Positions 3,673 through 57,008 of a DNA stretch of 64,000 bases are shown here, piece by piece. The notes beneath the pieces were generated by a model, which worked only from the letters and a program-made list of their open reading frames with translations, searched no databases and was not told where the DNA came from. This DNA is from Platycnemis pennipes (taxonomy: Eukaryota > Arthropoda > Insecta > Odonata > Platycnemididae). Made by a program: the position numbers and the translations under genes. Every line of letters starts with the position of its first letter. Positions within the stretch are counted from its first letter, which is position 1. Location: assembly GCA_933228895.1 (NCBI GenBank), contig OW121853.1, positions 126,748,133 to 126,812,132 on the forward strand, read 5' to 3'.

Positions 3673-3720
3673 TTCTCCCACCGGATAGTGCTCGACGTTA
3701 GTTTTAACCTTTATACCTTT

Positions 3721-6700: not shown

Positions 6701-7422
6701 GCCCACTGTGTAGCATATACACAGCCGAGCTGCTGGCCATTAAGATGGCTCTTGATGGGATAGGGAAGAGTGCTAAGGCGTTCGCCATTTGTACGGACTC
6801 TATGAGTGCTCTTCAATCCATTTCCGTCTTCTGCTCCTATCACCCCATTGTCCAGAGCATACACTCCAGGCTCCTATGCCTTAATAGAAGGGGAATTACC
6901 ATAACATTCCTCTGGGTCCCTGGACATGTGGGAATTGCCGGTAATGAGACGGCCGATGCAGCTGCGAAGAGGGCTCTAAGGATCCCTGAACAGACGGTGA
7001 CGCTGGTCCCTTGCCAGGACCTAAAGGCTACTCTTCGTAAAGTAGTGCTAGAGCAGTGGAGTGTCTCTTGGAGAGACGTGCGTAATAACAAACTACGCAG
7101 CGTAAAACCGGTAACGTCAGTGTGGCCCACTTCCGTCAGGAACAGTCGCAGAGAGGAAGTCGTCCTCACACGTTTAAGAATTGGGCATTGCGCCTTGACC
7201 CACTCCTTCCTCTTTACAGAAGAGAAGATTACACCTCGTTGTGACGACTGCGACTCTCCTCTCAGTGTCCGCCACCTACTGACTGAGTGTGACAAATTCC
7301 GGACTATGCGCGAAAAGCTGGGTATAAGGGGAGACCTAGAACAAATTCTAGGAGACGATCTTGATCGCCTAAGCCGAATTATATCTTTTTTAAAAGCAAC
7401 TGGCCTTCTAAATAAGATTTAA
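3721..7422 (+). CDS. LINE ORF2: AP endonuclease, reverse transcriptase, RNase H
   Basis: A 1233-residue replication protein, start chosen at the first ATG (3721), 48 nt after ORF1. It nicks target DNA and reverse-transcribes the element RNA there. Residues ~1-230 are an APE-type endonuclease (LQWNCNG, LQETH with E35, GDFNAH with D132/N134, SDH with H210). Residues ~480-760 are the RT, with FFDMEKAYDRVW (D581), GVPQGS and FVDD (D671/D672), the last a variant of YADD. RNase H follows, with TDGSKSD (D969), AELLAI (E1003), CTDS (D1026), GHVGIAGNETAD (H1069, D1079). A C-terminal CX2CX7HX4C knuckle lies at residues 1174-1190. All expected catalytic residues are present and the frame is unbroken, so the protein looks functional. 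The RNase H domain favours the I group over jockey. Confidence 0.93.
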   Translation: MAFILQWNCNGFYRHKEELAVLIRDLNPSCICLQETHFKTTDNGILKGFNVFRLDDTSGQRAQGGVWVATREALYTSRVQLNTPFQAVAVTVHAPEAVTVCNVYLPEAASVTRFNLETLLHQLPKPYILLGDFNAHETLWGSSREQCNRRGRVLSSFIKDFNLVLMNNGEHTRFNSFNGQFSTIDLCLTSSTLMNKLHLTVHNDLCGSDHFPILINRENNFNPDFIRPGNWIVRKANWPVFKDTFNFKHDESQNGVLNIDKLTRSIIHAANCSVPKSVRTILRPAVPWWNEECARAIRQRKKALRIFNKFPTETNLASFRYLRAKARRIVKEAKKASWMEYVSSINYRTPLAHVWDKVKRISGNHHQRSVPFLNVGGNVLTSPSAIGEVFGQLLTTTCSDDTYEETFLSIKRRSESCPLILTEKHTMAEYNIPFSLWELRSAIEDSRDTAAGMDEIHNAFLRNIPERALLEVLRSLNQLWAEGSFPNSWRESIVVPILKQGKDRADPNNYRPISLTSCLCKVTERMVNRRLVWWLERRNLLSTIQCGFRRGRSTVDHLVRVDNYIQEAFLLRQHVVGVFFDMEKAYDRVWRRKILTTLHEWGMRGNLLVFIHNFLSDRVFKVKVGNHLSDFYPQENGVPQGSVLSVTLFAIAINDIARCIKPPLLGSLFVDDLAIFCRSSKLNSAARVTQLALNRLGSWSQRNGFKFSTEKCKCVHFYRVRGAYIPPALLLDGRHLPYVDSVRFLGMTLDYRLSYRDHIRSLRDKSLRTLNILKFLNHSSWGADRRSLLLLYRSLVRSKLDYGSFVYASSRDTYLRSLTPVHNAGLRISTGAFRTSPVLSIYADAGEPPLSHRRNILMCSYAAKILATRNHPCFNVIFNPRFLELFSRRTRATKPLGVRFNLFIQAARLRLPDLYPVGYSSYPPWIIPPPEIHMGLSSRPKANTTDLEYQRIFNEFLGRHPEYIPVFTDGSKSDSACACAVTSSHHGVVKARLSPLCSIYTAELLAIKMALDGIGKSAKAFAICTDSMSALQSISVFCSYHPIVQSIHSRLLCLNRRGITITFLWVPGHVGIAGNETADAAAKRALRIPEQTVTLVPCQDLKATLRKVVLEQWSVSWRDVRNNKLRSVKPVTSVWPTSVRNSRREEVVLTRLRIGHCALTHSFLFTEEKITPRCDDCDSPLSVRHLLTECDKFRTMREKLGIRGDLEQILGDDLDRLSRIISFLKATGLLNKI

Positions 7423-7570
7423 TATAGAGTCGTTTATTTTTTATTTTTTTTTTTTTTCTATCGCCGACATATCTTATTTTTATTTTAGAACACCAAATAG
7501 ACTGCGTGGTGCAAATGACCTTAGTCGTCGACGCACCCATAAAAACATAAACCTACCTACCTACCTACCT
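7423..7570 (+). other. LINE 3' UTR and (CTAC)n tail
   Basis: A T-rich stretch is followed by a conserved segment with GTGGTGC ... GTCGACGCACC (about 7506-7536) that can fold by pairing GGTGC with GCACC. Similar segments end the LINE copy at 24890-24940 and the fragment at 8085-8150, so it is probably the RT recognition site. The element ends in short CTAC repeats rather than poly(A). Confidence 0.7.
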
Positions 7571-8213: not shown

Positions 8214-8720
8214 GTGCACATTAGGGCGGATCGGAAAAATCGATTTTTCGCGGAGAAACTTGGCCCTCTGGAAAAAGTTGTCAAAGTAACTCAAAATGAG
8301 GCCAGAAAAATTTGAGACCTCTAGGTCAACCCTAGACCCTCGCGCCGTGGCCATTTATGAGGAGGTGGGCTGAAAATGGAAAAAGTCATGTTTTTATAGC
8401 GGTTTCCCATGTATTTTGCCGAGTTGCGGTCCTTTAGTGCAAAAATTTCGTCCATTTGTACGTATCTGTAGCCGTTAAGCCACAAATTGTCTATTTTGAA
8501 TGCACGGCCGCGCGTAATTATGCACCACCCACGCAGCGTCGCGGCGCAGTGGTCAGAAGGCCGCTCGCGCGCCTCCTTCCGGCTCGCGCCTCCTGCCCGG
8601 TCGCCGCGAACGCAGCAAAACTCATCACGGATGCGTCTTCCGTCGTTGGTCTCATTAATATTAGATAATTAAACAATTTCCAGGGAATAACAATTACGGA
8701 AGAATTGTATGAAAGTAATA
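8214..8720 (+). repeat. Left inverted arm
   Basis: This 507-bp arm is the reverse complement of 11288-11792 with a few substitutions and a 2-bp indel near the outer end. It includes an unusually GC-rich block at about 8535-8625 (clusters of CGCGC and CCTCC) inside otherwise AT-rich sequence. Short open frames in the arms are mirrored in both copies and are not taken as genes. Confidence 0.9.
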
Positions 8721-9049
8721 CAAAGCACACCGTCATCATTCGGGGAGTAAAGAAACACTCCCCGAGTTTAGCCCAATTTTACTATTAATTTTCAGTATGG
8801 AGAGAGAATACAAAAATAATGAAAGTAGTTATTAGAGCTCACCACGTTGAGGTACCTGCACTATGAACTCCCCCGCCCACACTCCCACTCATAAAATAGA
8901 GGAACGCATTTCCTTTATCAGATTATATGCTCTCGAAAAAATAAGAAAGTGGTCATTTTGTATTACCAGTCGGTTTATCTGTGTGCAAGTATTCGTATTT
9001 ATACTTTATTTTCATTGAACACTAAAGGTCATTATCGATTTTTTTTATT

Positions 9050-10900: not shown

Positions 10901-11287
10901 AATTTACACTTGCTAGTTCTTTTGCTCTGACACGCACAAGAATCACATAGATTCTGGGAATCATTTAAAAATATATTAATTTTTTGTCGATTTCGCGCCT
11001 TTCATAGGCTTGCTTGCATTTTTTCTTAAGCCGTAGTACGTCGTATGGTACCGTATAATCATTTTAATCACACCACGCTCCGGAATGATTGGAATAGAGG
11101 TGTGTCTCCAAAGTGCGGACACTTTGGCCACCAGACTACTTGATAAGCCGTAGGCTCCCTTCCTGCGCTTTCATATCTCAATGCGTCGCGAACATAAAAA
11201 AAATATTTTACCACTTCTCTAAAAGTCGGTAACGTCAATTCGTTTATGTCGACGAGACAGGAAAAAAAGTTATAGTGTGTAGGGTTA

Positions 11288-11792
11288 TATTACTTTCATA
11301 CAATTCTTCCGTAATTGTTATTCCCTGGAAATTGTTTAATTATCTAATATTAATGAGACCAACGACGGAAGACGCATCCGTGATGAGTTTTGCTGCGTTC
11401 GCGGCGACCGGGCAGGAGGCGCGAGCCGGAAGGAGGCGCGCGAGCGGCCTTCTGACCACTGCGCCGCGACGCTGCGTGGGTGGTGCATAATTACGCGCGG
11501 CCGCGCACTCAAAATAGACAATTTGTGGCGTAACGGCTACAGATACGTACAAATGGACGAAATTTTTGCACTAAAGGACCGCAACTCGGCAAAATACATG
11601 GGAAACCGCTATAAAAACATGACTTTTTCCATTTTCAGCCCACCTCCCCATAAATGGCCACGGCGCGAGGGTCTAGGGTTGGCCTAGAGGTCTCAAATTT
11701 TTCTGGCCTCATTTTGAGTCACTTTGACAACTTTTTCCAGAGGGCCAAGTTTCTCCGCGAAAAATCGATTTTTCCGATCCGCCCTAGTGCAC
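11288..11792 (-). repeat. Right inverted arm
   Basis: Reverse-complement partner of 8214-8720, including the same GC-rich block at about 11385-11475. Confidence 0.9.
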
Positions 11793-13486: not shown

Positions 13487-13535
13487 ATAGAGGAAACGAG
13501 TTCCGGCGAGATGTGGTGGAAGTTTTCCATTATGG

Positions 13536-14099
13536 ATAAATGAAAAAACGTTGTGAACTCCACAGTGAATTTTATTGCGACGACCTAGGTTTCGACACGT
13601 AGTGTCATCTTCAGGTACAATATACACTTCAATTTTACTTATATACACAAAATATTGGGGGGGGGGGGTGGGGGGGGGAGGGGGAATGAGTAAGGGGAAG
13701 GTAGGGAAGGGTTTGGAAGGTTAGTCATTGGGTGAGTTGGCAAGTTGCTGAGGTGGGGAGGGGGGGAGGGGGTTAAGGGGTTGGGTTAGTCATTAGGCGT
13801 AGGTACGGGCCATTCAGCGCGGGTAGGGGGGCTAGTCATACACTTATTTGTCATCAATGTTTTTCAGTTCAAATTGCACTTGGGTTTTTTCACTATTTTG
13901 GGCGTAGGGTGTTTAAGGGGATGGAGAATAATGGAGAGTGGGAGGGGAGAACTTGCTCGTTCGCCAAAGGGACGTTGTTTTTAAAATGGTGGATGATTTC
14001 TAGGGATTCAAGGGCGTCTAATCTTCTTCCATTATTTTCTATGTGCAGGATGTCTGGGATGAAGCTGCTATTGTGGTTGTTGTCACTGAGGTGGTTGGC
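13536..14099 (-). repeat. Inverted copy of the PLE 3' part
   Basis: Reverse complement of 14468-15108, lacking the 86-bp repeat found in the other arm. It includes a G-rich low-complexity run (13656-13780) that mirrors a C-rich run at 14885-14990. Confidence 0.88.
13574..13622 (-). ncRNA. Hammerhead-like motif, inverted copy
   Basis: Mirror of the motif at 15021-15070, within the inverted arm. Confidence 0.3.
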
Positions 14100-14119
14100 C
14101 AGATCTAATTGACAAATTA

Positions 14120-14701
14120 GTGCTTAAATCTCGCCAAAAACTAGCCATCTCAATGGTGTCATCACTGCGCCGAGAAGAAGAAACAGCGAAGTGGTGTAAA
14201 CTTCCATTTTTAGGACATATTTCATATGAAGTCGCCTCAAAATTCCCTAAACAGAAATACAAAACAGCTTTCTATTCCCCATCAACTATAAAAAAGCTAT
14301 TATTCAATGCCAAAGACAAAATTCCAAAACACAAAAGAAGTGCAGTGTATTGTTTAAAGTGCGACGATTGCCCAACATTATACATCGGTAAGACAGAAAG
14401 GAGTGTTGATGTTAGAACAGAAGAACACAAAAAGTGCCATGAAAAGAAGAAACGAGAATCAATGTTCGCCAACCACCTCAGTGACAACAACCACAATAGC
14501 AGCTTCATCCCAGACATCCTGCACATAGAAAATAATGGAAGAAGATTAGACGCCCTTGAATCCCTAGAAATCATCCACCATTTTAAAAACAACGTCCCTT
14601 TGGCGAACGAGCAAGTTCTCCCCTCCCACTCTCCATTATTCTCACATCTACATCTACATAATACCCTGCAAGCCACCACAAGGGTGTGTGGCAGGGGGTG
14701 A
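14120..14701 (+). pseudogene. GIY-YIG endonuclease part of Penelope ORF, 5'-truncated
   Basis: The C-terminal endonuclease of a Penelope-like reverse transcriptase. AVYCLKCDDCPTLYIGKTERS is the GIY-YIG core in its PLE form, preceded by a Cys pair, followed by VRTEEHKKCH and FANHLSDNNHN, which place the conserved Arg, Glu and His/Asn residues of this nuclease class. No RT domain and no natural start remain, because the element is truncated at the junction near 14103. The frame now runs into the 86-bp repeat inserted at 14644 and ends at 14701; in the uninterrupted sequence of the other arm it would stop a few codons after that site. The domain itself looks undamaged. Confidence 0.8.
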
Positions 14702-14729
14702 TTGCTCACCAAACATGCACTATCTATAC
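14644..14729 (+). mobile_element. 86-bp mobile repeat with TTCTC duplication
   Basis: Starts with ACATCTACATCTACATAA and contains the imperfect hairpin CCTGCAAGCCACC / GGTGTGTGGCAGG. TTCTC occurs on both sides (14639-14643 and 14730-14734). The matching point in the inverted arm (about 13919-13931) lacks the repeat and has one TTCTC, so this is a true insertion with a visible empty site. Related copies lie at 30676-30735, 45472-45535 and 60905-60975. Confidence 0.8.
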
Positions 14730-15020
14730 TTCTCCATCCCCTTAAACACCCTACGCCCAAAATAGTGAAAAAACCCAAGTGCAATTTGAACTGAAAAACA
14801 TTGATGACAAATAAGTGTATGACTAGCCCCCCTACCCGCGCTGAATGTCCCATACCTACGCCTAATGACTAACCCAAGCCCTTAACCCCCCCCCTCCCCA
14901 CCTCAGCAACTTGCCAACACACCCAATGACTAACCTTCCAAACCCTTCCCTACCTTCCCCTTACTCATTCCCCCTCCCATCCCCCCCCAATATTTTGTGT
15001 ATATAAGTAAAATTGAAGTG

Positions 15021-15070
15021 TATATTGTACCTGAAGATGACACTACGTGTCGAAACCTAGGTCGTCGCAA
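15021..15070 (+). ncRNA. Hammerhead-ribozyme-like motif at PLE terminus
   Basis: CTGAAGA fits the hammerhead core CUGANGA. GACAC-tac-GTGTC follows as a short stem II, then GAAA and a palindromic CCTAGG as a possible short stem III. Hammerhead motifs are known in Penelope-like elements. One extra U after the GA and imperfect stem I pairing make catalysis uncertain. Confidence 0.35.
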
Positions 15071-15107
15071 TAAAATTCACTGTGGAGTTCACTACGTTTT
15101 TCATTTA

Positions 15108-15119
15108 TTCAATTTTATA
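15108..15119. repeat. Target-site duplication of the Penelope-like element, right
   Basis: Exact copy of 13475-13486. Confidence 0.75.
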
Positions 15120-20955: not shown

Positions 20956-21748
20956 CCCCCTGGAGGGTGAGATCCGTGGTTCCCAGCTGGGTGTCGGATG
21001 CCCGGTATGGACTAAGGGCCAATACCCCTCTTTGGCCCCGGATTCTGTGTAAACGGGCGGCCGGGAGCTAGCCACTCCCGGTCAATCGGCTTCCGTGGCG
21101 TAAGCTTAACGGTGGCGTGTGCCAGGGAGGTGGAAAACAGCGTAGTACGGTCGAAAGTGTATGGACCCGTGCATCTAAGACCTAACCCAATACGGGCAAC
21201 CACCTATAGGGTGCTATTTCCCCTCGGGTAGCCCTGGCGACAGCACCAGTTTGCGGTGCGGCATCCCGTGTGTGTGGCTCCGTGGTGGGTGGGGAGCCCG
21301 GAGGATGAAGACGTTGTTGGTATGGAAGATACTAATCTACCACCTACAAAAAGCCCGGACACGGGCGGGGGAGATATTTTTACCTTGAGACCTTGTCATG
21401 ATCTGCGCAAAACAGGGTAATGCACGTAAAACTGTGTCCCCTTATTTACTTAAGTAAATACTGTCACAGTACCCGGAGAGGTTACTAGTGCCAAAAAATT
21501 ACGGGACGGCACCACACTTATAGAAACGGCTTATGAAACTCCAGAGCGAAAAACTGTTGCAATGTCGACTATTAATGATATTCCAGTATGGTGGAGGGAC
21601 TCGCACCCTCAACAACATTCAAGGAGTGATCAGCTTATACGATATCTATACGTAGAAATCGAAGATATTAGGGCAGAGATGGCATTTTAGGGGCTCATTG
21701 ATGCTCGTCGTATGACCACTAAGCGCGAAGGAATTGTATAAAATACCA
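20956..21748 (+). mobile_element. I-like LINE copy 3, 5' fragment, decayed
   Basis: Matches the leader and ORF1 N-terminal half of copy 1, from the GGAGGGTGAG region of the leader. ORF1 starts near 21323 (MEDTNLPP) but has stops and frameshifts. The match ends at a point equivalent to about 2950 of copy 1, where LINE copy 2 begins with its own 5' end, so copy 2 may have inserted into copy 3. Confidence 0.8.
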
Positions 21749-21908
21749 CTCCCCCTGCGGGTAGGAGAATTGAGAATACTCCCGCAGTATCCCTGCTTGT
21801 CGTAAGAGGCGAATAAAAGGGCGGGGAGAAAACCCCGAAAACAAACCCAGAACCAACAAGGGTTGAGTCCGGACAGTCTTATGGGCCAACTGTCAGTGTG
21901 CGGCCATA

Positions 21909-21971
21909 CCACCTGGCCTGCGATCTACACCACCTGGCCTGCGATCTACACCACCTGGCCTGCGATGCACC
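21909..21971 (+). repeat. 21-bp unit, three tandem copies in LINE leader
   Basis: CCACCTGGCCTGCGATCTACA is present three times (21909, 21930, 21951; the last copy diverges at its end), while LINE copy 1 has a single unit at about 2070. Confidence 0.9.
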
Positions 21972-22273
21972 CGCATGTTTGCCGTGTGCAGAGACACGTA
22001 AGGAGGAGAAGGGGATCCAGGAGGGTGAGGTCCGTGGTTCCCAGCTTGGTGTCGGATGCCCGGTATGGACTAAAGGCCAATATCCCTCTTCGGACCCGGA
22101 TTCACTATAACGGGCGGCCGGGAGCTAGCCACTCCCGGTCAATCGGCTTCCGTGGCGTAAGCTTAACGGTAGCGAGTGTCAGGGAGTAGGGGGTCAACCG
22201 GTTTGCGTTGCGGCGTCCCGAATTTGTGGCTCCATGTTGGGTGGGGAGCCCGGGGGATGATGTAGTAATAGAT

Positions 22274-23035
22274 ATGGACGAGTGTCAACTTCTACCACCC
22301 AAAAGATCCCGCCCGGACACGGGAGGGAGAGGTTTTGTATCCTGCCGAAGCAAGCGGTGTCTTGTTATGAAATGTGCAAGGGAAGGAGAGACAGTAACAA
22401 AGGTACTTTTCTTTCCTTTCCTAATAAGAAAAGTAGTAACGTCCCAGGGGGACTAATTTCCTCAGAAAACTAAGGGACGGTAGTCTTCTTATAGAGGCAG
22501 CCAACGTAGCCCAAAGCGAGAAATTATTGAAAATGAAATTGCTTCACGATATTCCGGTCTGTGTGGATGTGCACCGCAGTCTAAACACGAGTCGCGGAGC
22601 AGTAAGTCAATTCGACCTAGTGTATGTGGAAGACGACGAAATCGAGGAGATGGCATCCCAAGGGGTGACCGTTTTTCGCCGTCTTACCACAAAACCTGAC
22701 GGTGTGGTTAAAAAGACCACGTCCGTGGTACTGACGTTCGCGAATGACAAGCTCCCAGACAAGGTTTTCATAGGTTATGAATCGGTACCTGTGAGGCCGT
22801 TCATTCCATCTCCCATGCGTTGTTTTCAGTGCCAGCGCTTCGGCCACACCGCAACGCGGTGTGAGGGCAAGGCCACCTGCCGGCGCTGTGGCCTGGACAA
22901 ACATGAGGACACTGAGTGTACCAACGAGCCACACCGTGTCAACTGCGAGGGTGCTCATCCCGTGTAATCTCGCAAGTGCCCAAGAGTAGTTGAAGAACGA
23001 AAGATCATGGAGATAATGAGTTGAACTACTATGAG
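22274..23035 (+). pseudogene. LINE copy 2 ORF1, broken
   Basis: Starts at the ATG at 22274. After a frameshift near 22430-22530 it reads clearly (22527-22967) through the conserved central domain and the knuckles CFQCQRFGHTATRC and CRRCGLDKHEDTEC. The third knuckle ends in a stop (HPV-stop at 22967). The Lys-rich tail is missing because the copy is deleted from about 23036. Confidence 0.85.
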
Positions 23036-23317
23036 TTGAGTACAACAAAAAAATTGAAAGAGGTATAATCACAACGTTACAACGTTGAGGTGAAGTGAGC
23101 CTTCGGATTTTATGCTTAAGCCCGTAGTACTTACAACCTTTAGAATCGTCTTTTCAACCCTTAATTATTTGAAAATGTGTATATGTACCTACGAACTTGT
23201 CAAATGCATTTTACTGAAGCTCAAATATTAATCTATCCAACATACGGTTGGAAAAATCTAATTAAAAACTTAATTTTTTTCATTGTGGCCACCTTTTGGG
23301 ATTTCGCCCCACTGATA
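23036..23317. other. Unrecognised filler inside LINE copy 2
   Basis: About 280 bp with no match to LINE copy 1, sitting where the missing ORF1 end, endonuclease and RT core should be. Origin unknown. Confidence 0.5.
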
Positions 23318-24775
23318 GTCGGTCTGATTCCTCGGTATGACTTTTGATAACCGACTGAACTGGCGTGAGCACATACTCTGAGAGATGTCTACGGACTCTA
23401 AATATTTTAAAACTTAAAATCACTCATCTTGGGGTGCCGATCGCATGTCCCTGCTTTTATTGTGCTTCGCACTCGTACGTTCCAAACTGGACTATGGGTC
23501 AGTTATTTACGCTACCAGTCGCGACTCTTACTTAAGGCCTTTGACAACAGTACATAACGCAGGGCTTCGTATCTCCACTGGTGCTTTCCGGACCAGCCCG
23601 GTCCTCAGCATTTATGCTGATTCCGGGGAGCCGCCGTTACCGTACCATAGGAACAGTATGATGTGCTCCTATGTGGCGAAAATTTTAGCTACCAAGAATC
23701 ACCCGTTTTAATTTGATTTTTAACCTCAGATTTATGGAACTTTTTATTCGACGGACAAGAGCTACCAAGCCGCTGAGTATCCGTTTTAAGTTATATATTC
23801 AGGGTATCGGGTTAAGGCTCTTAGATGTTCATCCTTTTGGGTACTCGAGTTACCCAATGTGGGTTATTCCGCCGCCAGACATCCATATGGCACGTAGTAG
23901 GTGCCATAAATCCCACACCACTGCTCTAGAATACCAGCGTCTCTTCAATGAATTTCTCTGCCGCCATTCCGAATTCATCCCTGTATACATGGATGGATCG
24001 AAGTCGGATGCAGCTTGCTCGTGTTCGGTTACCTCGTCTCATCACGGTGTTAGTTCAGTCAAGGCTTAATGACCTGTGTGGCGTATACACAGCGGAGCTG
24101 GTGGCCATTAAGATGGTTCTTGATGGAATATGGGGTTTTATCGGGGTCTTCTGTCATTTGCACACTCCATGAGCGCGCTGCAATCAATTTCCGTCTTCTT
24201 CACCACACCCTATTATCCAGCGACTACATACTACCCTTTCTTCACCACACCCTATTATCCAGCGACTACATACTACCCTTTTATCCCTTAATAGAAAGGA
24301 GCCAAAGTTATGTTTATCTGGGTCCTCGGACATATGGGTATAGCTGGAAATGAGAAGGCGGATGCAGCTGCAAAAGAAGATCTAAATATCCCTGAGCCGA
24401 CGACGACGCTGGTACTTTCCGTAAAGTAGTCCTAGAGCACTGGAGTGAACTTTGGAGTGATGTCCCAAACAATAAGCTACGGACAATTAAACCGGTAACG
24501 CCAGGGTTGCCCACTTCTGTCAGGGGTAGTCGCAGAGAGGAACATGCGTTTAAGAATCGCGTATTGCCCTCTGAACCACTTGTTCCTCTTTACAGAATAG
24601 AAAATTCCTCCTCTGTGCGATGACTGTGACTGTCCTATCACTGTGCGACATATCCTGACGGAGTGTGAAAAAACCGGCACGCACGTAACAGGCTAGGCAT
24701 CAGCGGCCACCTAAAACAGGTTCGGGGCAACGATGCTGATCGCCTAAGCCATGTCTTTACTTTTTAAAGGAAACT
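23318..24775 (+). pseudogene. LINE copy 2 ORF2 C-terminal half, broken
   Basis: Reads as RT thumb (LVRSKLDYGSVIYATSRDSYL) and RNase H, matching copy 1 closely, with several frameshifts. The first RNase H Asp is changed in VYMDGSKSD context but retained as Asp; later blocks (GPRTYGYSWK in one frame, GHMGIAGNEKAD in the correct one) need frame changes. The C-terminal knuckle remnant is at about 24610-24665. A 42-bp tandem duplication at 24198-24281 disrupts RNase H. Confidence 0.8.
24198..24281 (+). repeat. 42-bp tandem duplication in RNase H region
   Basis: CTTCACCACACCC... is repeated exactly with a 42-bp period (24198-24239, 24240-24281). Confidence 0.95.
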
Positions 24776-25081
24776 AACTTCATAAGTAAAATAAAATATA
24801 TTTTCATATATTTGGGCCTTTTATACTGCCATTGTTTTTTTTCTTTCTTTTTCTATATTTCTATCTATGCATATTTATGGGTATAAATTAAATTGTGCGT
24901 TGTGATAAATGTCCATAGTTGTCGACGCACCCTATAAATCTAAATCTTCCTAAATCTCCTTGCGAACCAAGATAATTATTTACGGCTTCAGGCAGTGATC
25001 GTTCCTTTGAACTGGGAAGATCCGAGAGGACCGATGTTGACAGAAGGAATGAAAGCACTCAACGTAGATTCTTGCGTGAAG

Positions 25082-25334
25082 CAAGAAGCTAGGTATGTTC
25101 TCTGCATCTCGGGTTCTGCGTCCGCGTTTGTTGACTGGGGGTGACAACAGTTTCGCTAGCCGTCCCGCTAGCGTCTTCAGGTGAATCAAAGTTATGTTTA
25201 GGTGAACCTGAAGACGCTAGCAGGACGGCTAGCGAAACTGTTGTCACCCCCAGTCAACAAACGCGGACGCAGAACCCGAGATGCAGAGAACATATGAACG
25301 ACGCCGCGGAAACCTTCGCACCAAGAAGCTAGGT
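25082..25334. repeat. Hairpin insertion with 89-bp arms between 13-bp direct repeats
   Basis: Arms 25094-25182 and 25206-25294 are reverse complements with one mismatch and a 23-nt spacer. CAAGAAGCTAGGT occurs at both 25082-25094 and 25322-25334. Each arm contains CCTGAAGAC, GCTAGC, GCTAGC, GAAAC, the same layout as the PLE terminal motif at 15029-15056, so this may be an inverted PLE-end insertion. Confidence 0.8.
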
Positions 25335-34735: not shown

Positions 34736-36244
34736 CCCCCTGTGGGTAGGGGGATTGAGATACTCCTGCAGTATCCCTGCTTGTCGTAAGAGGCAACTAA
34801 AAGGGCGGGGAGAACACCCCGAAAACAAACCCCATGGGTTGAGCCCGGACAGTCTTGTGGGTCAGCTGTCTGTGTGCGGCCACACCACCTGGCCTGCGAT
34901 CCACTTGCATGTTTGCCATGTGTGGAGACCCGTAAGGAGGAGAAGGGGATCCTGGAGGGTAAGGTTCGTAGTTCCCAGCCAGGTGTCGAATTCACGGTAT
35001 GGACTACGTGCCAATACCCCTCTTTGGCCTTGGATTCGCTGTAAACTTGCGGCCGGGGGCTAGCCACTCGGTCAATCGGCTTCCGTGGCGTTCTGTTCAA
35101 CGGTGGCGAGTGCCAGGGAGGTGGTGGTCTGCGTAGGGCGGTCGGAGACGTACGGGTTTGGTGGGGCCGTGCATCGAAGACCCAACCCGAAACAAACAAC
35201 CACCTCTAGGGTGCTACATCCCTCGGGTAGCCCTGGCGAACACACCGGTTTGCGGTGCGGCGTCCCGTATGTGTGACTCCATGGAGAATGGGGAGCTCGG
35301 GGGATGAAGTCTTACTTGGTATGGAGGATAACAACCTACCACCAATTAAAAGATCCCAGCCCGCCCCAGTGGGGGAGATAACGGTCTCTGAGCCTCGCGG
35401 CGATTTTTGATTATGAAGTGTACAAGGGAAGACGAGACCCTCATGCAGGTGTCTCCCTTCCTAATTAAGAGTTTTGTCGGCCAAGATTCCCGGCGAATTA
35501 AAGTCCGCAAAGAAACTGCGGGATGGGTCTCTGCTAATCTAAACAAGCAACCCAAATCAGGCCGAGAAATGACTAGGTATTGAGGCACTCTATGACATTC
35601 CCGTCTCGGTAGAGGTGCACCGCATCCTGAACACCAGTCGGGGAGTCATAAGTCATTACGACTTCTTATACGTGGAAGCTGAGGAAATAAAATCTGAAAT
35701 GTCGTCTCAAGGCGTCACAGACGTTCGTCGGCTTACCACCAAGCGTAATGGAGAAGTAGTGAACACTACATCCGTCGTTATGACTTTTGCCCTTGATAGG
35801 CTCCACTATACGGTGTTCGTCGGGTACGAATCGGTCCCTGTGCGGCCATTCGTACTGGCTCCTATGCGCTGCTTCCAGTGCCATAAGTTCGGACTAATCG
35901 CTTAGCGATATGAGGGCAAGGCCACCAGCCCACGTTGTGGCCTGGAAAACCACGAGGGTACGGAATGCAAAAATGACCCACACTGCGTTAATTGCGAGGG
36001 TACACACCCCGCCTATTCTCGTCAATGCCCAAAAGTGAAGGAAGAACGCAAAGTCATGGAAATCAAAATTTGGAAAAGATCACCTATTTCGGGGCGAGAA
36101 AGAAGTATAGGGCACTGGAGGCCCCTACCTTCTCCAAATCCTTCGCTGCATTTGCTACAAACCAAGTAACCAAGGTCAGTATCGCAACAGAGACAGAATG
36201 CGCAATCAACCACAGCAGAACAAAAAGAGAAATCGGCCACTCCG
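34736..36244 (+). mobile_element. I-like LINE copy 4, 5' part (split by Transib A)
   Basis: Starts with the CCCCCTG 5' end and covers leader and ORF1. The ORF1 ATG at about 35320 is followed by frameshifts; the best part (35615-35905) matches the central domain. The first knuckle is lost to HKFGLIA-stop. The copy is interrupted at 36244 by Transib A and resumes at 40099 at the equivalent point of ORF1. Confidence 0.88.
36240..36244. repeat. Transib A target site, left
   Basis: CTCCG precedes the left heptamer. The right side reads AACCG at 40099-40103, so the duplication is imperfect or partly lost. Confidence 0.5.
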
Positions 36245-36283
36245 CACAGTGGTCGGAAGGCCCTCATTTCCCGGACAAAAGTT
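36245..36283 (+). repeat. Transib A left terminus, 23-RSS-like
   Basis: Heptamer CACAGTG at 36245-36251, spacer 36252-36274 (23 bp), nonamer-like ACAAAAGTT at 36275-36283. Confidence 0.88.
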
Positions 36284-37239
36284 ATTTTTTTGATCTTCAC
36301 GCATATTAGTTAATTTTGAGTCCACTTCATTGCTAAAAATTCATCGTAAATAAACTAAGTACATTTTAAAGCCAATAAAGTGATACACTTTACACATATT
36401 TGGTATCGTAATGATATTTTACTATCAATAAGCTAAGGGCGCACACGATGTATTTAGAATAACTTTGCAAATACCTAATTTGGAAACTTTAGTGGTTGGT
36501 TGGCCTCTGTGAAACTTAATCCATCGGTAACTTTGTCACAAATAGCCGAATGCTATTTATAACGCTCCTCATTGCAGAGGGGGATGAATCAAAGCGAGGC
36601 CTTGATTTGACTCCTTTTTCTACAATGGAAAGCGTTACATTTGACCACAAATTAGTGTAGACAGATTAACTCGGCCTCCTTTTCTCGCGTGGGAAGGTAG
36701 GCTAGTCAATGTATCTACATTATGGACAGTCTAATTGACTACTTCACTCTTCCCTATCCAGTTTTCCTCACTCTTGACTTTACTGTAGATGATAATCTGA
36801 AGCGAGCCAGTGCGAGTAGAAAAGAATAGAAGGATACGACGAGTCTATCTTCATTGAGTGTTAGCCTCGCACTTTCCATACAGTAGTGAGTGTCTGAATG
36901 TGTGCGATAGTTTTGCATGCAGAGAAATGACTACACGGAAGCAGTTATTTGAAGTATTGAGGTAAAAATAGTCTCAAACTATGAAGGAGCAGTGTGACCA
37001 CCTTTATCAGTATTTGATCAGGTACTTCGAACTCTTTTCTTACCGTAATCTCTACCTATAGTTATCAATTGAGCAATTGGCCACACTGATAGGTCATCTT
37101 AATATTACTGCTTGGTTGCTGAAAAGTAAAAATATAAATTTCTGTGTAAGCTTATTCAAAACTACACTTTTGTCATTACTCAGTACGCATCATATAGAGA
37201 ATAGCATAGATGCCAGAAGGAAAATAGCTCTACAATACG

Positions 37240-39232
37240 TATTTCTGCCTTCTACTCACATATTCATTCAAGATGGCAGAAATGTCAAAGGAAACTGGCT
37301 AGATTTCTGCATTGTTATTTTGAATGGCTGGAAGAAGATGCCAATTTGTTTTTGATGAGCTCACCACCCTCGGAGCTTCAGGTGAGTACAGTTTTATAAA
37401 ACAACTAAATCAGATAGGATCGTGTAAGCTCCAGAATTTTTTATGCGAAATGATTATGGTTACTAAAATATTTCAGAGATAGGACGTCCTAAGAAGGAAT
37501 TCAGTGAACTCTGCGATCGTTCCAAGCGAAGACGTATAACAGATCTTTGCGGCAAAACAAGCCCGGAGGAAATTTCGTTTGCAGCATGTTCAAGTCTGAG
37601 AAATACAGGCAAAGGAGATGCTGCTCAGGTATTAGGAGAAGCTCTGCGCACTCCTAAGAGGGCTTCAAAGATAAAAAAGGCGTGGGAGTCAGTCCAAAAC
37701 ATGAGAGAATATGTAGTTAGGTTTACTAGCTAGGTTTACTAGCGACGAGGCCCTAGCTTTATTCTTGGACTTTAATCTCACCAAAAGACAATCTGTCTTA
37801 ATTCGTCAGCGCTTCTCTCGAAGAACGTGCATGTTATGCCAAGTTATGATGGTCTTTTGGAGGCTAAAACACGATGCTATCGGAGAAGAGAGGACACTGT
37901 AATCACATATTCATGTGCCGAGACAAGTCTCCAGGGGTTACTTGAGCATACTGTTAATCGAATTCTAATCGTTGAGGAGCCGGTAATAAGGACTTTGTCT
38001 CCTGAGCAGCGATGTAACTTGTCCCTTGTGTGTAAATGGGGATTTGATGGTGCGTCAGGTCATTCCACGTACAAGCAAACTGCCCCTGATCCGAATTTTC
38101 ATGATGGTGGCATATTTTTTACATCACTTGTTACGTTACAGATGTTTACACGGATAGGGCAGGGGCTAAAAGTTATTGTGTGGTAAAATTCGCGCCCGTC
38201 TTCGCCAAGGTTCTGTCGACCTCTAAAATTTGAGTTTGTTAAAGAAACAGCACCTGTAACGACATATTCAGCGACAAATAGACAAATTACATCCTACGAA
38301 ATGTAATAATTTTGAGCTTGACTGCTGTATTACTCACAAATTATACCTGACTATGATCGACGGTAAGGTTTGCAATGTACACACGTCTACTGCCTCATCA
38401 CAATCCTGCAATATCTGCCAGTCGAAGCCATCAGAAATGAATGACTTAGAGGAGATTGCAAGAAAGCCTGTGAACTCCCGAGCCTACCACTATGGCCTTT
38501 CGCCTTCGCAGTGCTGGATAAGGTCGTATGAGTGTATCCTACACATTGAATACAAGCAAAATATCAGGAAGTGGCACGTCTCTACGGAGCACGACAAAAA
38601 GAGTGTAGCCATGAGGAAACAGGAACTACAGAAGGCTTTTAGAGAAAAAATTGGCCTTATCATTGATCAGCCAAAACAAGGCAGCTGTACAACGAACGGC
38701 GGGAACTCTGCACGCCGTTTCTTTGAGAATCATGAACTTTCCAAAGAAAATACCGGAGTTAATGTAAAGTTCATTCAGCGCTTGTCAAATATCCTCCACG
38801 CCTTGGCAAGCTCTTAGGAGATAAATGTTGAGGCTTTCCGGGACTACACTAGAGAGACAGCCCGGCTCTTTGTACATTTGTACGGTTGGTATGAGATTCC
38901 AGCCTCGGTTCATAAGCTCCTTATGCATGGGGCGGATATAATCGGCGCAAAAAAGTCGCTCCATTGCCTTTAGGACTTTTTTCCGAGGACGCCCAAGATG
39001 CTAGAAATAAAGACGCAAGAAAATACAGAGAAATGAATACAAGGAAGACGTCAAGGGTAGAATGTAATGAAGACCTTATCCACATTCTGCTAGTATCATC
39101 CGACCCATTGAACACCAGCATGAGAAGAAAGGTGAGACGGAATAATGCTGCAATATCTAGCGATGTCCTACAGCTGCTACGAGAACCTCATGAGAAGTCG
39201 GACATTCCTCAAACACTTGAGTCGGAGGAATA
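37240..39232 (+). pseudogene. Transib A transposase (RAG1 core homologue), broken
   Basis: A relic spliced transposase. FLHCYFEWLEED precedes a GT donor at 37382, and exon sequence resumes at 37477 with EIGRPKKEFSELC and SPEEISFAACSSL, parallel to Transib B. The core has VCKWGFDGASGHSTYKQ (first Asp, ~38043), MIDGKVCN (second Asp, ~38359) followed by a C-x2-C pair (SCNICQ), GGNSARRFFEN, and near 38990 SEDAQDARNKD with KTSR and LVSSDPLN. In RAG1 the third catalytic residue is Glu962 in NESGNK; the aligned position here is Asp (AQD). Stops at ~37734 and 38817 and a frameshift at ~38950 make it inactive. Confidence 0.88.
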
Positions 39233-40061
39233 AGAAAGTTAATGATATTCTATATTACGATACATTTTGTCTTACGTATTAAATTTAAATAAAGTTTACT
39301 TAAAAAATGAACTGTTTTCATTAAATAAACCTGCGGCAAGGTAGCCCGTAATTTGAAATCGTATGCCCACAACGTTTCAGAGAGAATTTAGATATACAAT
39401 GTTTAAAACTTGAAAGAAATGGTTTCGTCTAATGAATGTTGTCTCGTGGAATTAATTTCAAAATCATATTCTGTTAGTCGCAAAGAGCCATTATTCCTAG
39501 CAATTGTCAATTCGATACGACCATTTTACGCCTTCTCCTAGGGAACGAGAGTCTTTCAACATTCGTCACGAGTGACCATGTTAACCTCTTCAATCAAAAA
39601 TGCGCAGTTATGCGCAGCTAATTCTTTCAACAATTGGTATATGAGATATCATTCTACATGTGTCACTAAAGCAGAACACAGTGTAACGTAGTGGAAATTT
39701 TATAGCTCGAATTTATTTCTAGAATGCCAATTACTGGAGGACGCCAGATGAAGCTCTGTTTTATAGCTTATTTCTAATCTAACACGACGTATGGCTTATA
39801 AGCACAATTTCTAAGTCCCAAAGAATCAACTATATTAAGTATCGTTCAGGGAATCACACCCGATGGCAGAGGAACGCAAATGGAATATTGCTAATTTCTC
39901 TGCCTGAAAACAAACAAATCACGATCCCTCTATTCTTAGGTCTGTAGTGTTGGAACGGTTGAAGTTGAAGTTGAACATCAAAAAAGTGTGGTTTACTTGG
40001 GATGAATATTTAACTAAATTTGGACTCCAATTTGAGGAACTTGTATAATATTCGAAAAATG

Positions 40062-40100
40062 GACTTTTGTCCGGGAAATGAGGGCCTTTCGACCACTGAA
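40062..40100 (-). repeat. Transib A right terminus, 23-RSS-like
   Basis: On the minus strand the heptamer position reads TTCAGTG instead of CACAGTG (40100-40094), then a 23-bp spacer and ACAAAAGTC (40070-40062). Confidence 0.8.
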
Positions 40101-40492
40101 CCGGCTAAGGCCTCTAAACCGGCACAAAAACATGAAAATAAAAATGTGAGTCCTAGCAAAATGAACTTACCTATTTCAACCACAATTACTAATGCGAGGC
40201 GTGAGAAGACGCCTTCCCCGGTCCCTCCGGCCCCGTTGGACAGAACCGACCGGAATCGATGGAAGAGGACGAGAGTATTTCAGAGACAGAGGTCCTCCTC
40301 GCGAAGCAGAAGGGGAAGAAGCACCGCCGAATACGGCGGTGATTCTCCCACCGGATAGAGTGCTCGACGTAAGTTTTAACTTTTATACTTTTATGGCATT
40401 TATCCTGCAGTGGAACTGCAATGGTTTTTATAGGCATAAGGAGTATTCGCTGATGGTTCTAAATCGGATGCAGCCTGCTCGTGCGCAGTTGC
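40099..40492 (+). mobile_element. I-like LINE copy 4, 3' part, internally deleted
   Basis: Resumes the Lys/Pro-rich ORF1 end, the ORF1 stop and the ORF2 ATG at about 40393, then jumps at about 40442 straight to the first RNase H block (TDGSKSD equivalent), so roughly 2.85 kb of ORF2 is missing. It is cut at ~40492 by RTE-like sequence. Its ORF1-ORF2 spacer is 50 nt, not 48. Confidence 0.85.
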
Positions 40493-42498: not shown

Positions 42499-42700
42499 TG
42501 TTAGAGGTTAAATAATATCTTGAGATATCCGCTTTAAACTAAGATGTTTTAATAACGAGTCACAGACACATCCAAATTCCAGTTTACAAATTGAACGACT
42601 GACAGAGAGTTGACAACAACAATATAGATAAATAGTTACTGACATAAATAGCAACATATGTTGCCAACCCATATTTATGTATTAGATTACAACTCTAACA
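42499..42700 (-). repeat. Copia 3' LTR
   Basis: 202 bp, differs from 43352-43553 at one visible base (T in CTTGAGATAT here, C in CTCGAGATAT there). Confidence 0.95.
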
Positions 42701-42715
42701 CCCTCACTTAATCTA
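42701..42715 (-). other. Copia polypurine tract
   Basis: On the minus strand AAGTGAGGG lies next to the 3' LTR, as expected for plus-strand priming. Confidence 0.65.
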
Positions 42716-42863
42716 ATAGGTATATATATATAAATCATTAAGATTCTGCAACCAGTCCTTTCTTCCTGTCATATCGTAGCTCCGGAGTAGATGAACCAGT
42801 CAGCTTCACTCGCGATGTGTTTGGCTCCCAAGGCTGCCACAGAGAGAAGAGTTCTCTCCTTTT

Positions 42864-43253
42864 TCATCGCCGTACTCGGTACAGCTGATGGTCCTTGTGC
42901 AGTCCTGGACCCATGCGATGAACCGCTACTGTGTGTCTCGTAGTTCCATCTGCTCCTGCATTTGGCTCTAATGTCACCAAATTTCCCACGTTTCTAGCCA
43001 CTTGCACTGCTTTACCAGGTTGTCGCCCGGAAACCCCTTTACTTTTTGCCCACAACGCGGACTCGTCATTTTGGCCCCACCGACTGTCCTGAATTAATTT
43101 GGATGTGTCATCTGCGGCGTAGCCTTCAACGCAACTCCAAAACCCTTCGTGCACTAAATACATCTTCATTTGGAATGTCCAAATATTGTAATTGTCCCGT
43201 CCATCCAATTTTTCCATGGATGCCAAACCAGTTCCAACTGACGCCTCAGCCAT
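42864..43253 (-). pseudogene. Copia gag N-terminal remnant
   Basis: From ATG 43253 the frame reads through LDGRDNYNIWTFQMKMYL and EGFWSCVEG, the N-terminal gag domain of Copia elements (a Trp-rich block). After about 55 residues the family pattern is lost, reflecting internal deletion. No nucleocapsid knuckle and no pol domain remain. It is about 130 residues and not a working gag-pol. Confidence 0.8.
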
Positions 43254-43337
43254 TTTTCGCTTTAACGATACAATAAAAAAAATGCACTCGCGTAATGTTG
43301 CAGTACTATTGAAGCACAACTGGTCCTTTTCGGTCGC

Positions 43338-43351
43338 CTGGGCCCATAACC
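43338..43351 (-). other. Copia primer-binding site
   Basis: CTGGGCCCATAACC on the plus strand adjoins the 5' LTR. It equals the anticodon region of initiator tRNA-Met, the internal half-tRNA primer used by insect copia. Confidence 0.85.
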
Positions 43352-43553
43352 TGTTAGAGGTTAAATAATATCTCGAGATATCCGCTTTAAACTAAGATGT
43401 TTTAATAACGAGTCACAGACACATCCAAATTCCAGTTTACAAATTGAACGACTGACAGAGAGTTGACAACAACAATATAGATAAATAGTTACTGACATAA
43501 ATAGCAACATATGTTGCCAACCCATATTTATGTATTAGATTACAACTCTAACA
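43352..43553 (-). repeat. Copia 5' LTR
   Basis: 202 bp, partner of 42499-42700. Confidence 0.95.
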
Positions 43554-52700: not shown

Positions 52701-53116
52701 TTCGCAATCAGCCATGTCAGTTGATTCTCGATTTGATCGTCCAAAATCTGCGGTCAACTTGACAAGAGATTTGATCCCCGATCACAGCTGATTATTGTTG
52801 GTGAAACGGAATCAACAAAATCGCCGATCAAATCAAGACTTGATCGCCGATCAAGCGTTGATCGTTGTTGGTGAAACCGGCCCTAAGTGGCTATATGAAA
52901 ATAATCTATGAATGGGTTCCTGATTATGATTGAGGAAGGATATGAGGGAGTTATTTTCAATTTGCAGGCATTGTAATGTTTATTATTAATTCAAAATGAT
53001 TCAAAACAAATGCAACCACTTCAAATTAAAGTTCTTTGCGCATGCGTACAAGAGAAACAAGTGCGAAATATGCTGTAAATCCGACAACGCCGTAACGTTC
53101 GATTGGCTGCTGACGA

Positions 53117-53158
53117 TCGCCCTTATACAATCGCCCTTATACAATCGCCCTTATACAA
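53117..53158 (+). repeat. 14-bp tandem repeat, three copies
   Basis: TCGCCCTTATACAA at 53117, 53131 and 53145. Confidence 0.95.
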
Positions 53159-53324
53159 TCGCACTTTTCATCCTCGTTCGAAGACGGTGAGCTCGATCGA
53201 GAGTGAACGGATCACTAACGATCGAACGTTAGCCGAGTTACACAATCGGCCCCCAGAGCGGATGAATCGTCTAAAAGACCAGCACATGACCGGCAGTTCA
53301 CCGCTTGAGATCCGAAGATGGTCA

Positions 53325-53329
53325 CGCCG
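53325..53329. repeat. Transib B target-site duplication, left
   Basis: CGCCG, repeated at 57004-57008. GC-rich 5-bp duplications are the Transib hallmark. Confidence 0.93.
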
Positions 53330-53368
53330 CACAGTGGTCGATTTCACTGATTTAGCGGGACAAAAGTA
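53330..53368 (+). repeat. Transib B left terminus, 23-RSS-like
   Basis: CACAGTG at 53330-53336, 23-bp spacer, ACAAAAGTA at 53360-53368. Confidence 0.93.
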
Positions 53369-54298
53369 TAAAATGCAAGTTCCTTGTATTAATGTGTAAT
53401 TGTGTTTAGTACGTAGCCAATGAACCAACAAGTGCTATGGAAAAGAAATTACACCGAAAATGTTAGTTTTTTCAACGGTAGCGATACATTGAAGTGGAAG
53501 AATTAATTTCGGAGCCTCTAGTCACACTCCGTGGTCACAGCGCACCCATCAATTTCGGAGGGTATATCGGTTCGAATTTGAGTGATATTTTGAAAACCTT
53601 TACACTTAATAGAGAGGGTTGTTTCTGGTGGGTAATCATAAATTAATATTCGAGAAAATTTGCAAGGTTGGGTGTTGTAAGTATCGCTGAACAATTCATT
53701 ACAAATAATTATTAATTTTTGCACAATTGATTTTTAGAGTTGACGTACAAAAAAAGTTTCACGAGGTTTTACGTAAAAATGTGGTGCACTTCAATCCTTA
53801 AACAGTTATCTATGAACCAGTAATAGCGGTATTTGCGCCTACTTGCGCCGAAAGAAGTTATTCTCATTTTCCAGGAGCCGTGCACGCCATCTTGCGAAGA
53901 GATTTCTAATTCGAGAGTAGTATCTGGCATATAAAACGTTGTTATTTTATGTATGTAGGTATGTATATATATATATACATTAATTATACATTTTTATTTA
54001 TATTAACAGTCAGGAGTTTACGCCAATTAGAACAAAATTTATCAAATGGGTTATTCAAGGAAATATTTCATAATTCCTAAAGCAAAAATAGTTATGATTG
54101 AAGGACAGACATCTCCAAACCAAGTAAAATTTACTTGAATTTAAGAAATGAAACATAATTGTTCAACAATGAAATAAACCAAGCAACGAAATTACTAATG
54201 TAAATAAAATATCAACAAACTTGAAGGTAAAGTAACCTTGAAGGTGTCTTCATATAATTTTCTGTGACGCGTGATTTTTGGTTGATTCTTCGGTCATT

Positions 54299-56638
54299 AT
54301 GGAAGGCGATGTTTCAGGTAAATACTTAATGGTAATGTTGTTAAAGTTCCCAATGAAATGTATGGTACAATACCGTGCTACGTGAGTGTAACTAGGATCT
54401 TATGTTGTGTAATATGCTGTTAGAATTCGGCCCACTAACAAGTCTTCTCGAGATAGCACGCTACACTTCCCGATATTACAAACGTAACCGTTAGTAAGTT
54501 GTTCAATGATAATAGCAATGATTCTGCCCACTCCCACCAAATAACGTTACCCTTGTTTTCAGGAGCTGTGCGCACAATTCGGCGCCGAGACTTATTTGAA
54601 TTTATGAGAGAAAATAATCTCACTGGAAAATCAACATCACCGCAGACAACAGCGCAGTTAATCAATTTTGCATTTAAAAAGATAGTATCTGACAATTGTG
54701 ATATAGAAGAGAATTACTTACTGAAGGAGCGAATCAAACATTTTTCGAATAATTTCCTACTACGCTGGAAGGCATGTGGCAGGAGTTCGGCAAAGTTCCT
54801 GGTAAAGTACTCAAAGTGGCTTGATGTGAACTTAAGTGCACAACAACAGTCACCATTGCCTCTCGAAATAAGCTTAGGGGATAAGGTAGGCCGCCCAAAG
54901 AAATTGTTCTCTTCTTGCAGCTCAAAATCTAAGAGAAGAAAGATTGAAACTCTTGTACAATCTCGAAGCCCTGAAGAACTTGCTTTAGCTGCGCAATCTA
55001 GCTTTACTTCAACTGGCAAAAGAAATGTAGCACAAATCATAAAAAGTGCTACAACGAAAAGCCCTCGTTCAGTGAAAATAATTAAAAAAGTATGTGAAAA
55101 CCCATTTAATTCTTCCACCTCGAAACCCTATTCCCCTGAGGAAGCTTTAGCATTAATGGTAGAATTGAAATTAACTAAACATCAATATATTGCTATGCAG
55201 AAGGGAGCTAAAGAAAGAAATTTTGATATTTATCCTTCCTACTGCTCAGTTTTAAAGGCAAAAATCGAGTGCTACCCTATACAGGAATCGATCACTGTAT
55301 CAGAAACGTTAGTGGAGGTTAAATTACAAAATTTATTCGACCATACAGCAATGCGTCTAATGAAAGTACTAAACGCCGTATTTACTCAGTCTTGCCGCGG
55401 ATATGACTAAGTATCCTTTCAAATGAGTCATAAATGGGGATGCGACGGCAGTTCAGGGCACTCCCTTTATAAGCAAAGTTTTCCGAAAATCAGCATTCTT
55501 CAGATTCCGATGTTCTTTTGACGTCAATAGTTCCTTTACAGCTTCAATTTGAGCAAAAAGAAACAAATCAAAAAGTAATTATGTGGCAAAATCCAAGGAC
55601 GTCCTCCACAAGATTTTGCAGACCAATTCGACTTCAATTTGTGAAGGAAACTCCTGAGAAAATTAGAGAAGAAATCTACGGCATTGAGAAGCAAATAGCT
55701 AATTTGACGCCTACTAAATTAACCATAGGAAATAAAGTCATTGTTATTAAGCATTTGCTGTTAAATACAATGGTAGATGGAAAAGTCTGCAACTCTTTGA
55801 TGAATAATTTATCATCTCAAGTGTGCTACATTTGTGGTGCTTCTCCAAAAGAAATGAACAATTTTGAAATTGTTAAAAAACGACCTGTAAATACTGCAGC
55901 ATTTAACTTTGGCTTATCTACGCTGCATGCTCGTATTCGATTTTTCGAGTGTGTCTTGCATATATCTTACAGGCTAAAATTTCAGAAATGGCAAGTCCGT
56001 GGAAGTCAGACAGTAAAAGATGCTTATCAGTTAAGGAAAACAAGTAATAAATAGGTTTAGATCGGAAATGGGCCTCCTAGTCGATGTAGTAAAACAAGGA
56101 TGTGGAACTACCAACGATGGAAACACCTCTCGCCGATTCTTTGACAACCCAAGGAAAGCTGCGGAAATTACTGGAGTTGATGAGAAGTTGATTGAACGGT
56201 TCTCCGTTATTTTGCAAGCCATATCAAGTGGATATGGCCTCAACGTAGAAGCATTTAGAGAGTATGCCCATGGCACTGCTCTGCTATATGTTAGCCTTTA
56301 TCAGTGGTTTTACATGCCCACTAGTGTCCATAAAATTTTGATCCATGGAGCAGACGTGATTGAAAGCATGGTTTTACCAATTGGCCAATTATCAGAGGAT
56401 GTGAAGAGGCAAGACACAAGGAATGTAGAGCCTTCCGGGAGCATCACACTCGAAAAATGTCAAGAGGGGACACTAATCAAGACTTAATGAACCTATTATT
56501 AACTAGTTCCGACCCATTAATTTCGGCCCTCAGGAAATTACCAAATAAAAAGTATAGTCAACTGCCTAGTGCCGTCATAAGTTTATTAAAAACTCCGGAA
56601 CATGTAGGAAATGACTCAACGGATACGGAGAGTGAATG
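54299..56638 (+). pseudogene. Transib B transposase (RAG1 core homologue), frameshifted
   Basis: Exon 1 is ATG 54299-54317 (MEGDVSG), followed by a GT...TTTTCAG intron; exon 2 starts at 54563 and reads 280 residues: RRRDLFEFMRENNLTG, GRPKKLFSSCSSKSKRRKIE, SPEELALAAQSSF. After frameshifts at 55395-55435 comes KWGCDGSSGHSLYKQ (first catalytic Asp), then MWQNPRTSSTRFCRPIRLQF, MVDGKVCN (second Asp), CYICGA (zinc Cys pair), HARIRFFECVLHISYRL, TTNDGNTSRRFFDNP, SVHKILIHGADVI, and, after a one-base slip at ~56404, EEARHKE with the third catalytic Glu, EHHTRKMSR and TSSDPLISALRKL. All three DDE residues and the zinc region survive, so a few repairs separate it from a full frame of ~650 residues. Alignment to RAG1 Asp600/Asp708/Glu962 is from memory of the family. 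Confidence 0.92.
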
Positions 56639-56964
56639 AATATAATGTGATAAAACTGAGTAAAATATTTTATGCACAAAATAATTTGAAATAAAACATG
56701 GTAATGGTACAAATATTGAATGGAACACCTGTATTCATATTTGTTTAATGTGTATTGTAATGCAAATAATTTCGTTTTATTTGAAAACAATGCAGAAACT
56801 TTTATTACTCCAATTATTAGAAGATACCACAAACTACGAAACTTGGGTAACAATGCACAGAACCCTTTTTTAATGCTATATTTTCATGTTTTATTGCTTT
56901 TTAGGTTTATAATTCCAGAAATTTACAATAAAATAAGGCTATTCGATTGATTACATTGAAAAAA

Positions 56965-57003
56965 TAATTTTGTCCCTCTAATACTCGAAAATCGACCACT
57001 GTG
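56965..57003 (-). repeat. Transib B right terminus, 23-RSS-like
   Basis: On the minus strand CACAGTG (57003-56997), 23-bp spacer, ACAAAATTA (56973-56965). Confidence 0.93.
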
Positions 57004-57008
57004 CGCCG
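57004..57008. repeat. Transib B target-site duplication, right
   Basis: CGCCG, as at 53325-53329. Confidence 0.93.

Follow-up and report, generated by a model that had tools for sequence, protein, structure and literature searches.

Whether the nonamer half of a Transib transposon end is a maintained feature bears on the origin of V(D)J recombination. The argument for the descent of the V(D)J recombination signal sequences (RSSs) relies on comparing them with Transib ends, and here the nonamer is the less convincing part, since HzTransib, an active element with a solved structure, is described in the available text of PMC8289069 as showing little or no nonamer likeness. The question is raised by a 64 000 bp stretch of the damselfly Platycnemis pennipes (assembly GCA_933228895.1, contig OW121853.1, 126 748 133–126 812 132, forward strand; hereafter the window), in which a degenerate Transib copy of 3674 bp occupies 53330..57003 on the plus strand (element 1) and a second, distant Transib, also degenerate and of ~3.85 kb, occupies 36245..40098 on the same strand (element 2). 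We propose, with a probability of about 0.8, that element 1 derives from an autonomous Transib DNA transposon with bipartite RSS-like ends and has since been inactivated, and comparison with element 2 suggests that this two-part end has been kept between Transib families.

Ends and insertion sites of the two elements

Both ends of element 1 carry the heptamer CACAGTG, a 23-base spacer and the block ACAAAA, at 53330..53365 on the plus strand (heptamer 53330-53336, ACAAAA 53360-53365) and at 56968..57003 on the minus strand, read from 57003. The element is flanked by the target site duplication CGCCG, read from the sequence at 53325..53329 and 57004..57008, and its inverted repeat is 80 % complementary across 45 bases with the duplication counted in. 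An earlier note on this DNA had claimed both this layout at the two termini and the perfect duplication, and both were confirmed. Its description of the ends as a perfect 23-RSS is correct as regards heptamer and spacer length, but the nonamer as a whole is not perfect, agreeing with ACAAAAACC at 6 of 9 positions at each end. From the outside inward, the left and right ends are identical at 15/15, then 5/12 and then 9/9 bases. A short tandem repeat with a 14-base unit lies at 53113-53166, ~160 bases left of the element.

Element 2, which the earlier note did not include, reads CACAGTG-23-ACAAAA at its left end. Its right end agrees with this layout from the third base onward, the outermost two heptamer bases not being CA, so that the spacer is 23 at both ends in each element, and its inverted repeat reaches ~109 bp at 74 %. 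Self-comparison of the window showed that 1912-3771 recurs as 34736-36244 and 40101-40443 at 88–89 % identity, with ~3.85 kb in between. The left part of this host sequence (34736..36244, plus strand) is 88 % identical to 1912-3429, which overlaps open reading frame 1 (ORF1) of a long interspersed nuclear element (LINE), and the right part (40101-40443, plus strand) is 89 % identical to 3427-3771; the insertion site of element 2 is a copy of LINE ORF1, with the empty paralogue at 1912-3771. The left flank is CTCCG (36240..36244), facing CGCCG at 3425-3429 of the empty site, and the right flank, read from the sequence, is AACCG (40099-40103). Since the empty site is CGCCG, this was probably the original target of both elements, in agreement with the GC-rich 5 bp targets described for RAG in the available text of PMC11844651. 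In the window, 1.5 % of all 5-mers consist entirely of G and C.

The LINE at 2410-7422 may itself be a recent copy. It has two long open frames, 2410-3672 (420 aa), taken for its first gene and without a Pfam match of its own, and 3673-7422 (1249 aa), which shows matches to endonuclease, reverse transcriptase and RNase H. More diverged pieces resembling it, at 70–82 % to parts of 1912-7559, are found at 20959-24952.

The transposases of the two elements are 44 % identical (244/555 aligned residues, the sum of ten BLAST pieces). When the four ends were compared, CAGTGGTCG was common to all and CACAGTGGTCG was present in three, and after 17 unconserved bases GGACAAAA was common to all four. Within the 17-base part of the spacer, identity between the families was 4/17 (left) and 5/17 (right), approximately the chance level. 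When the columns of element 2 were shuffled 200 000 times, no common run of 8 arose beyond column 11, and the left ends of the two elements, slid along one another, scored at most 5 out of register, compared to 10 in register. CACAGTG occurs ten times in the window, counting both strands; in three of these ACAAAA follows 8–34 bases on, always at exactly 23, and all three sites are Transib ends. A scan with CACAGTGGTCG (up to three mismatches, restricted to sites with CAC at 1–3 or CAG at 3–5) returned 20 sites, with exact ACAAAA at 23 only at the four element ends. The retention of CACAGTGGTCG, 17 unconserved bases and GGACAAAA in both families indicates that the distal, nonamer-position block is probably constrained.

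The best-surviving alternative is that element 1 is a Transib whose nonamer likeness is accidental, the outer 11–15 bases alone being recognized and the A-rich block deriving from A/T-rich DNA or common origin. Several observations weigh on this side and against a constrained block. HzTransib ends are said in passages of PMC8289069 to resemble the heptamer but the nonamer little or not at all, and nonamer matches across the four ends reach only 6, 6, 6 and 7 of 9. In element 2 the left and right ends agree across almost the entire spacer; taken by itself, this element therefore gives no sign that the block is under special constraint. In addition, the two ends of a single element do not count as independent, the comparison covers two families only, and common descent favours likeness. 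However, between the families the spacer is at about random identity, yet the block has been preserved at its original distance, and in element 1 the drop to 5/12 between two fully matching segments also speaks against accidental likeness. Accidental likeness is therefore considered unlikely, and bipartite RSS-like ends remain the preferred reading.

Transposases and family assignment

The transposase gene of element 1 lies on the plus strand. A possible first exon (ATG, 19 nt; 54299..54317) and a putative GT...AG intron (54318-54562), which keeps the reading frame, were read from splice sites in the sequence. Piece 1 (54563..55407, frame open from 54457, ending at an in-frame stop) includes the N-terminal helical part, a GRP motif at 54889-54897 and, behind it, the DDBD. 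In the same frame, 55411..55518 carries KWGCDGSSGHS, the block of the first catalytic Asp (55432-55464). The remaining pieces are in other frames: piece 2 (55473..56051) with VDGKVCN, the second Asp block (55773-55793), and the zinc Cys pair CYICG (55824-55838); piece 3 (56035..56484), matching 296-419 of the HzTransib chain; and piece 4 (56364..56636) with EEARHKE, the catalytic Glu block (56403-56423), and the C-terminus. All three DDE triad blocks of the Transib superfamily were located in this way, and the motifs listed in the earlier note (CDGSSGHS, VDGKVCN, the Cys pair and EARHKE) are present, although spread over different frames. Their catalytic roles are assigned by analogy with HzTransib D126, D225 and E436, as given in the available text of PMC6941560. 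The gene is damaged by one in-frame stop (after 55407) and three frame changes downstream, and a complete enzyme can therefore not be produced from this copy.

The comparison with PDB used unmended frame pieces, four of the five, 55411-55518 being left out. All four matched HzTransib 6pqn_A, with E values of 1.2e-13 for piece 1 (54457-55407), 1.2e-38 for piece 2 (55473-56051), 3.3e-44 for piece 3 (56035-56484) and 2e-11 for piece 4 (56364-56636). The fifth piece aligns with the Transib-like protein P0060. A protein search with one piece of element 1 gave 63 relatives, the best at 56 % identity over 91 % of the piece, and 9/9 organism-named rows were arthropods. No RAG1 or Transib model in Pfam matched element 1, all matches being below curated cut-offs; this null result is uninformative because P0001 and P0004, which carry the precomputed label PF26100, were also unmatched in the same library copy. 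The transposase of element 2 is likewise broken. Its catalytic blocks KWGFDGASGHS (38034-38066), IDGKVCN (38356-38376) and DARNKD (38997-39014) span 38034..39014 on the plus strand, not all in one frame, and the one piece compared with 6pqn matched at E 1.3e-38.

The HzTransib matches, the three catalytic blocks, the inverted repeats and the 5 bp duplication support the earlier assignment of element 1 to Transib, as does the fact that no second long gene is present; the assignment is near certain. A RAG-like (RAG1L-RAG2L, ProtoRAG-type) element could also have RSS-heptamer-like ends and a 5 bp duplication, as these occur in both groups (available text of PMC7204232). This identity is very improbable given the strong HzTransib match, the absence of any RAG1 chain among the PDB matches of the four pieces up to E 1, and the absence of any open frame longer than ~100 aa outside the transposase region, including the linked RAG2-like gene by which RAGL/ProtoRAG elements are recognized (a search of open frames only, not of decayed remnants). 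Still less probable is a host gene that tamed the transposase. In its favour, each of the three catalytic blocks can still be recognized; against it, the coding region has acquired a stop and frame changes while the transposon ends and duplication stay intact.

GRP domain and comparison with known systems

The GRP motif of element 1, and its position ahead of the DDBD, agree with the RAG1-type nonamer-binding domain (GGRPR-like motif); the element 2 transposase has a GRP motif at 37482..37490 (plus strand). Neither a profile comparison nor a separate fold of the domain confirmed this correspondence: the profile comparison with PDB gave four matches at E 1.4 to 2.2, RAG1 not among them, and the domain folded alone had a predicted local distance difference test score (pLDDT) of 57.8. 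Foldseek returned no match at E <0.001 for a 317-residue model (mean pLDDT 64, predicted template modelling score 0.32), the top rows being HzTransib (0.016, 0.12) and RAG1 (0.19). The protein search with piece 1 found one relative at E <0.001 among 1363 candidates, and the GRP region of P0055 as query found three, P0055 itself included, which leaves few sequences for the GRP comparison. By analogy with RAG1, there is about an even chance that this domain reads the distal block.

A mechanism can be proposed from HzTransib and RAG. Two molecules of the intact transposase would bind the two ends, nick at CAC and make hairpins on the flanking DNA, and the element would be cut out and then joined at a GC-rich 5 bp target. 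Of the two parts of the end, the catalytic core beside the cut would recognize the outer CACAGTGGTCG. The N-terminal GRP (AT-hook-like) helical domain, which would correspond to the RAG1 nonamer-binding domain, would hold GGACAAAA, in which ACAAAA starts at a distance of 23 bases from the heptamer. Neither element has the unequal 12/23 pair of V(D)J type, and with a spacing of 23 at both ends no 12/23 rule would apply. The full combination, in which both families are Transibs with a complete symmetric 23/23 RSS in which a GRP nonamer-binding domain recognizes the nonamer and no RAG2 takes part, is put forward tentatively, as we hold it to be rather doubtful as a whole.

The transposase core of element 1 aligns to HzTransib of Helicoverpa zea (PDB 6pqn, 6pqr, 6pqu, 6pqx, 6pqy, 6pr5), and the two are alike in core transposase family and catalytic blocks. 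The solved HzTransib chain starts at the DDBD without the GRP part, whereas piece 1 has the GRP motif. Most Transib families, according to the available text of PMC8289069, have symmetric ends such as those of HzTransib, with little or no nonamer likeness, in contrast to the ACAAAA at the ends of element 1. Resemblance of Transib ends to RSSs is noted in passages of PMC6941560 and PMC8355894, both citing Kapitonov and Jurka 2005, and the latter describes some ends at which both heptamer and nonamer are the same as in canonical RSSs. The RSS-like ends pointed out in the earlier note are therefore correct but not new in kind. In the same passages, fly and mosquito Transib families resemble the present elements in having a heptamer and an A-rich block at ~23 bp (PMC8355894, PMC6941560); the families in the available text of PMC8355894 have unequal 12/23 or equal 20–22 spacers, whereas the present elements have 23 on both sides. 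Transib subgroup II (PMC9435367), likened here by description only, has a GRP motif ahead of the DDBD as in element 1, and symmetric ends occur in it; its GRP nonamer-binding-like domain has already been published. The subgroup is also characterized there by having lost, from the zinc domain, the helices alpha11-alpha12 that bind RAG2.

The vertebrate RAG1/23-RSS system shares CACAGTG, the 23 bp spacer, ACAAAA and the DDBD fold with the present elements, which differ in having no RAG2 (open frames) and no 12-RSS partner and in matching the nonamer at 6–7 of 9 positions. Amphioxus ProtoRAG likewise has two conserved blocks with a spacer and a 5 bp duplication, but its spacers are 27/31, its distal block is another and a RAG2-like gene is present (available text of PMC8289069). 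Transib ends of RSS-like form, and the presence of a GRP domain in Transibs, have thus been published before (PMC8355894, PMC9435367). No Transib whose ends are symmetric, 23/23, and carry CACAGTG and ACAAAA was found in the article text covered, figures and supplements excluded, and the strict occurrence of this layout in two distant families, together with the GRP motif, may be novel.

Further relatives, other repeats and significance

A blastn comparison of element 1 with the window (E up to 1) recovered its own ends and, within element 2, a stretch matching at 68 % (E 0.001). Seven further short matches (E 0.016 to 0.69), of which each element contains one, were taken for chance. In viral contigs, four queries, three of them protein, gave no confirmed relative; two of the protein queries gave 32 and 38 pattern-matching stretches, for all of which confirmation failed. 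Among prokaryote genome contigs, 0 of 8 candidate stretches were confirmed. The 19-base end pattern was found in two bacterial metagenome-assembled genome contigs, for which the chance expectation is ~2 (2 x 257 billion / 4^19, equal bases).

The genome is transposon-rich in this window. Inverted repeat arms at 13533-15111 (13533-14099 versus 15111-14468, 93.6 and 99.4 % in two pieces) enclose a 203-aa frame whose GIY-YIG match is weak (E 0.0014) and falls short of the curated cut-off, an arrangement which we take to resemble a Penelope-type element. A 202 bp direct repeat at 42499-43553 (42499-42700 and 43352-43553, 99.5 %) adjoins a frame with DUF4219, presumably as in a Copia-type gag. Further repeats are a 510 bp inverted repeat (98 %; 8214-8723 and 11285-11792) and a ~200 bp palindrome at 25094-25294 that is 93 % self-complementary.

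Element 1 by itself is an ordinary dead transposon with strikingly RSS-like ends, and element 2 makes it more informative. Two distant Transibs with ACAAAA at 23 bp and a GRP motif provide a natural test of whether nonamer recognition is older than RAG2. If the full combination proposed above is true, the transposase would from early on have possessed the bipartite 23-RSS and its reader by itself, and the 12 bp partner and RAG2 would be later additions.
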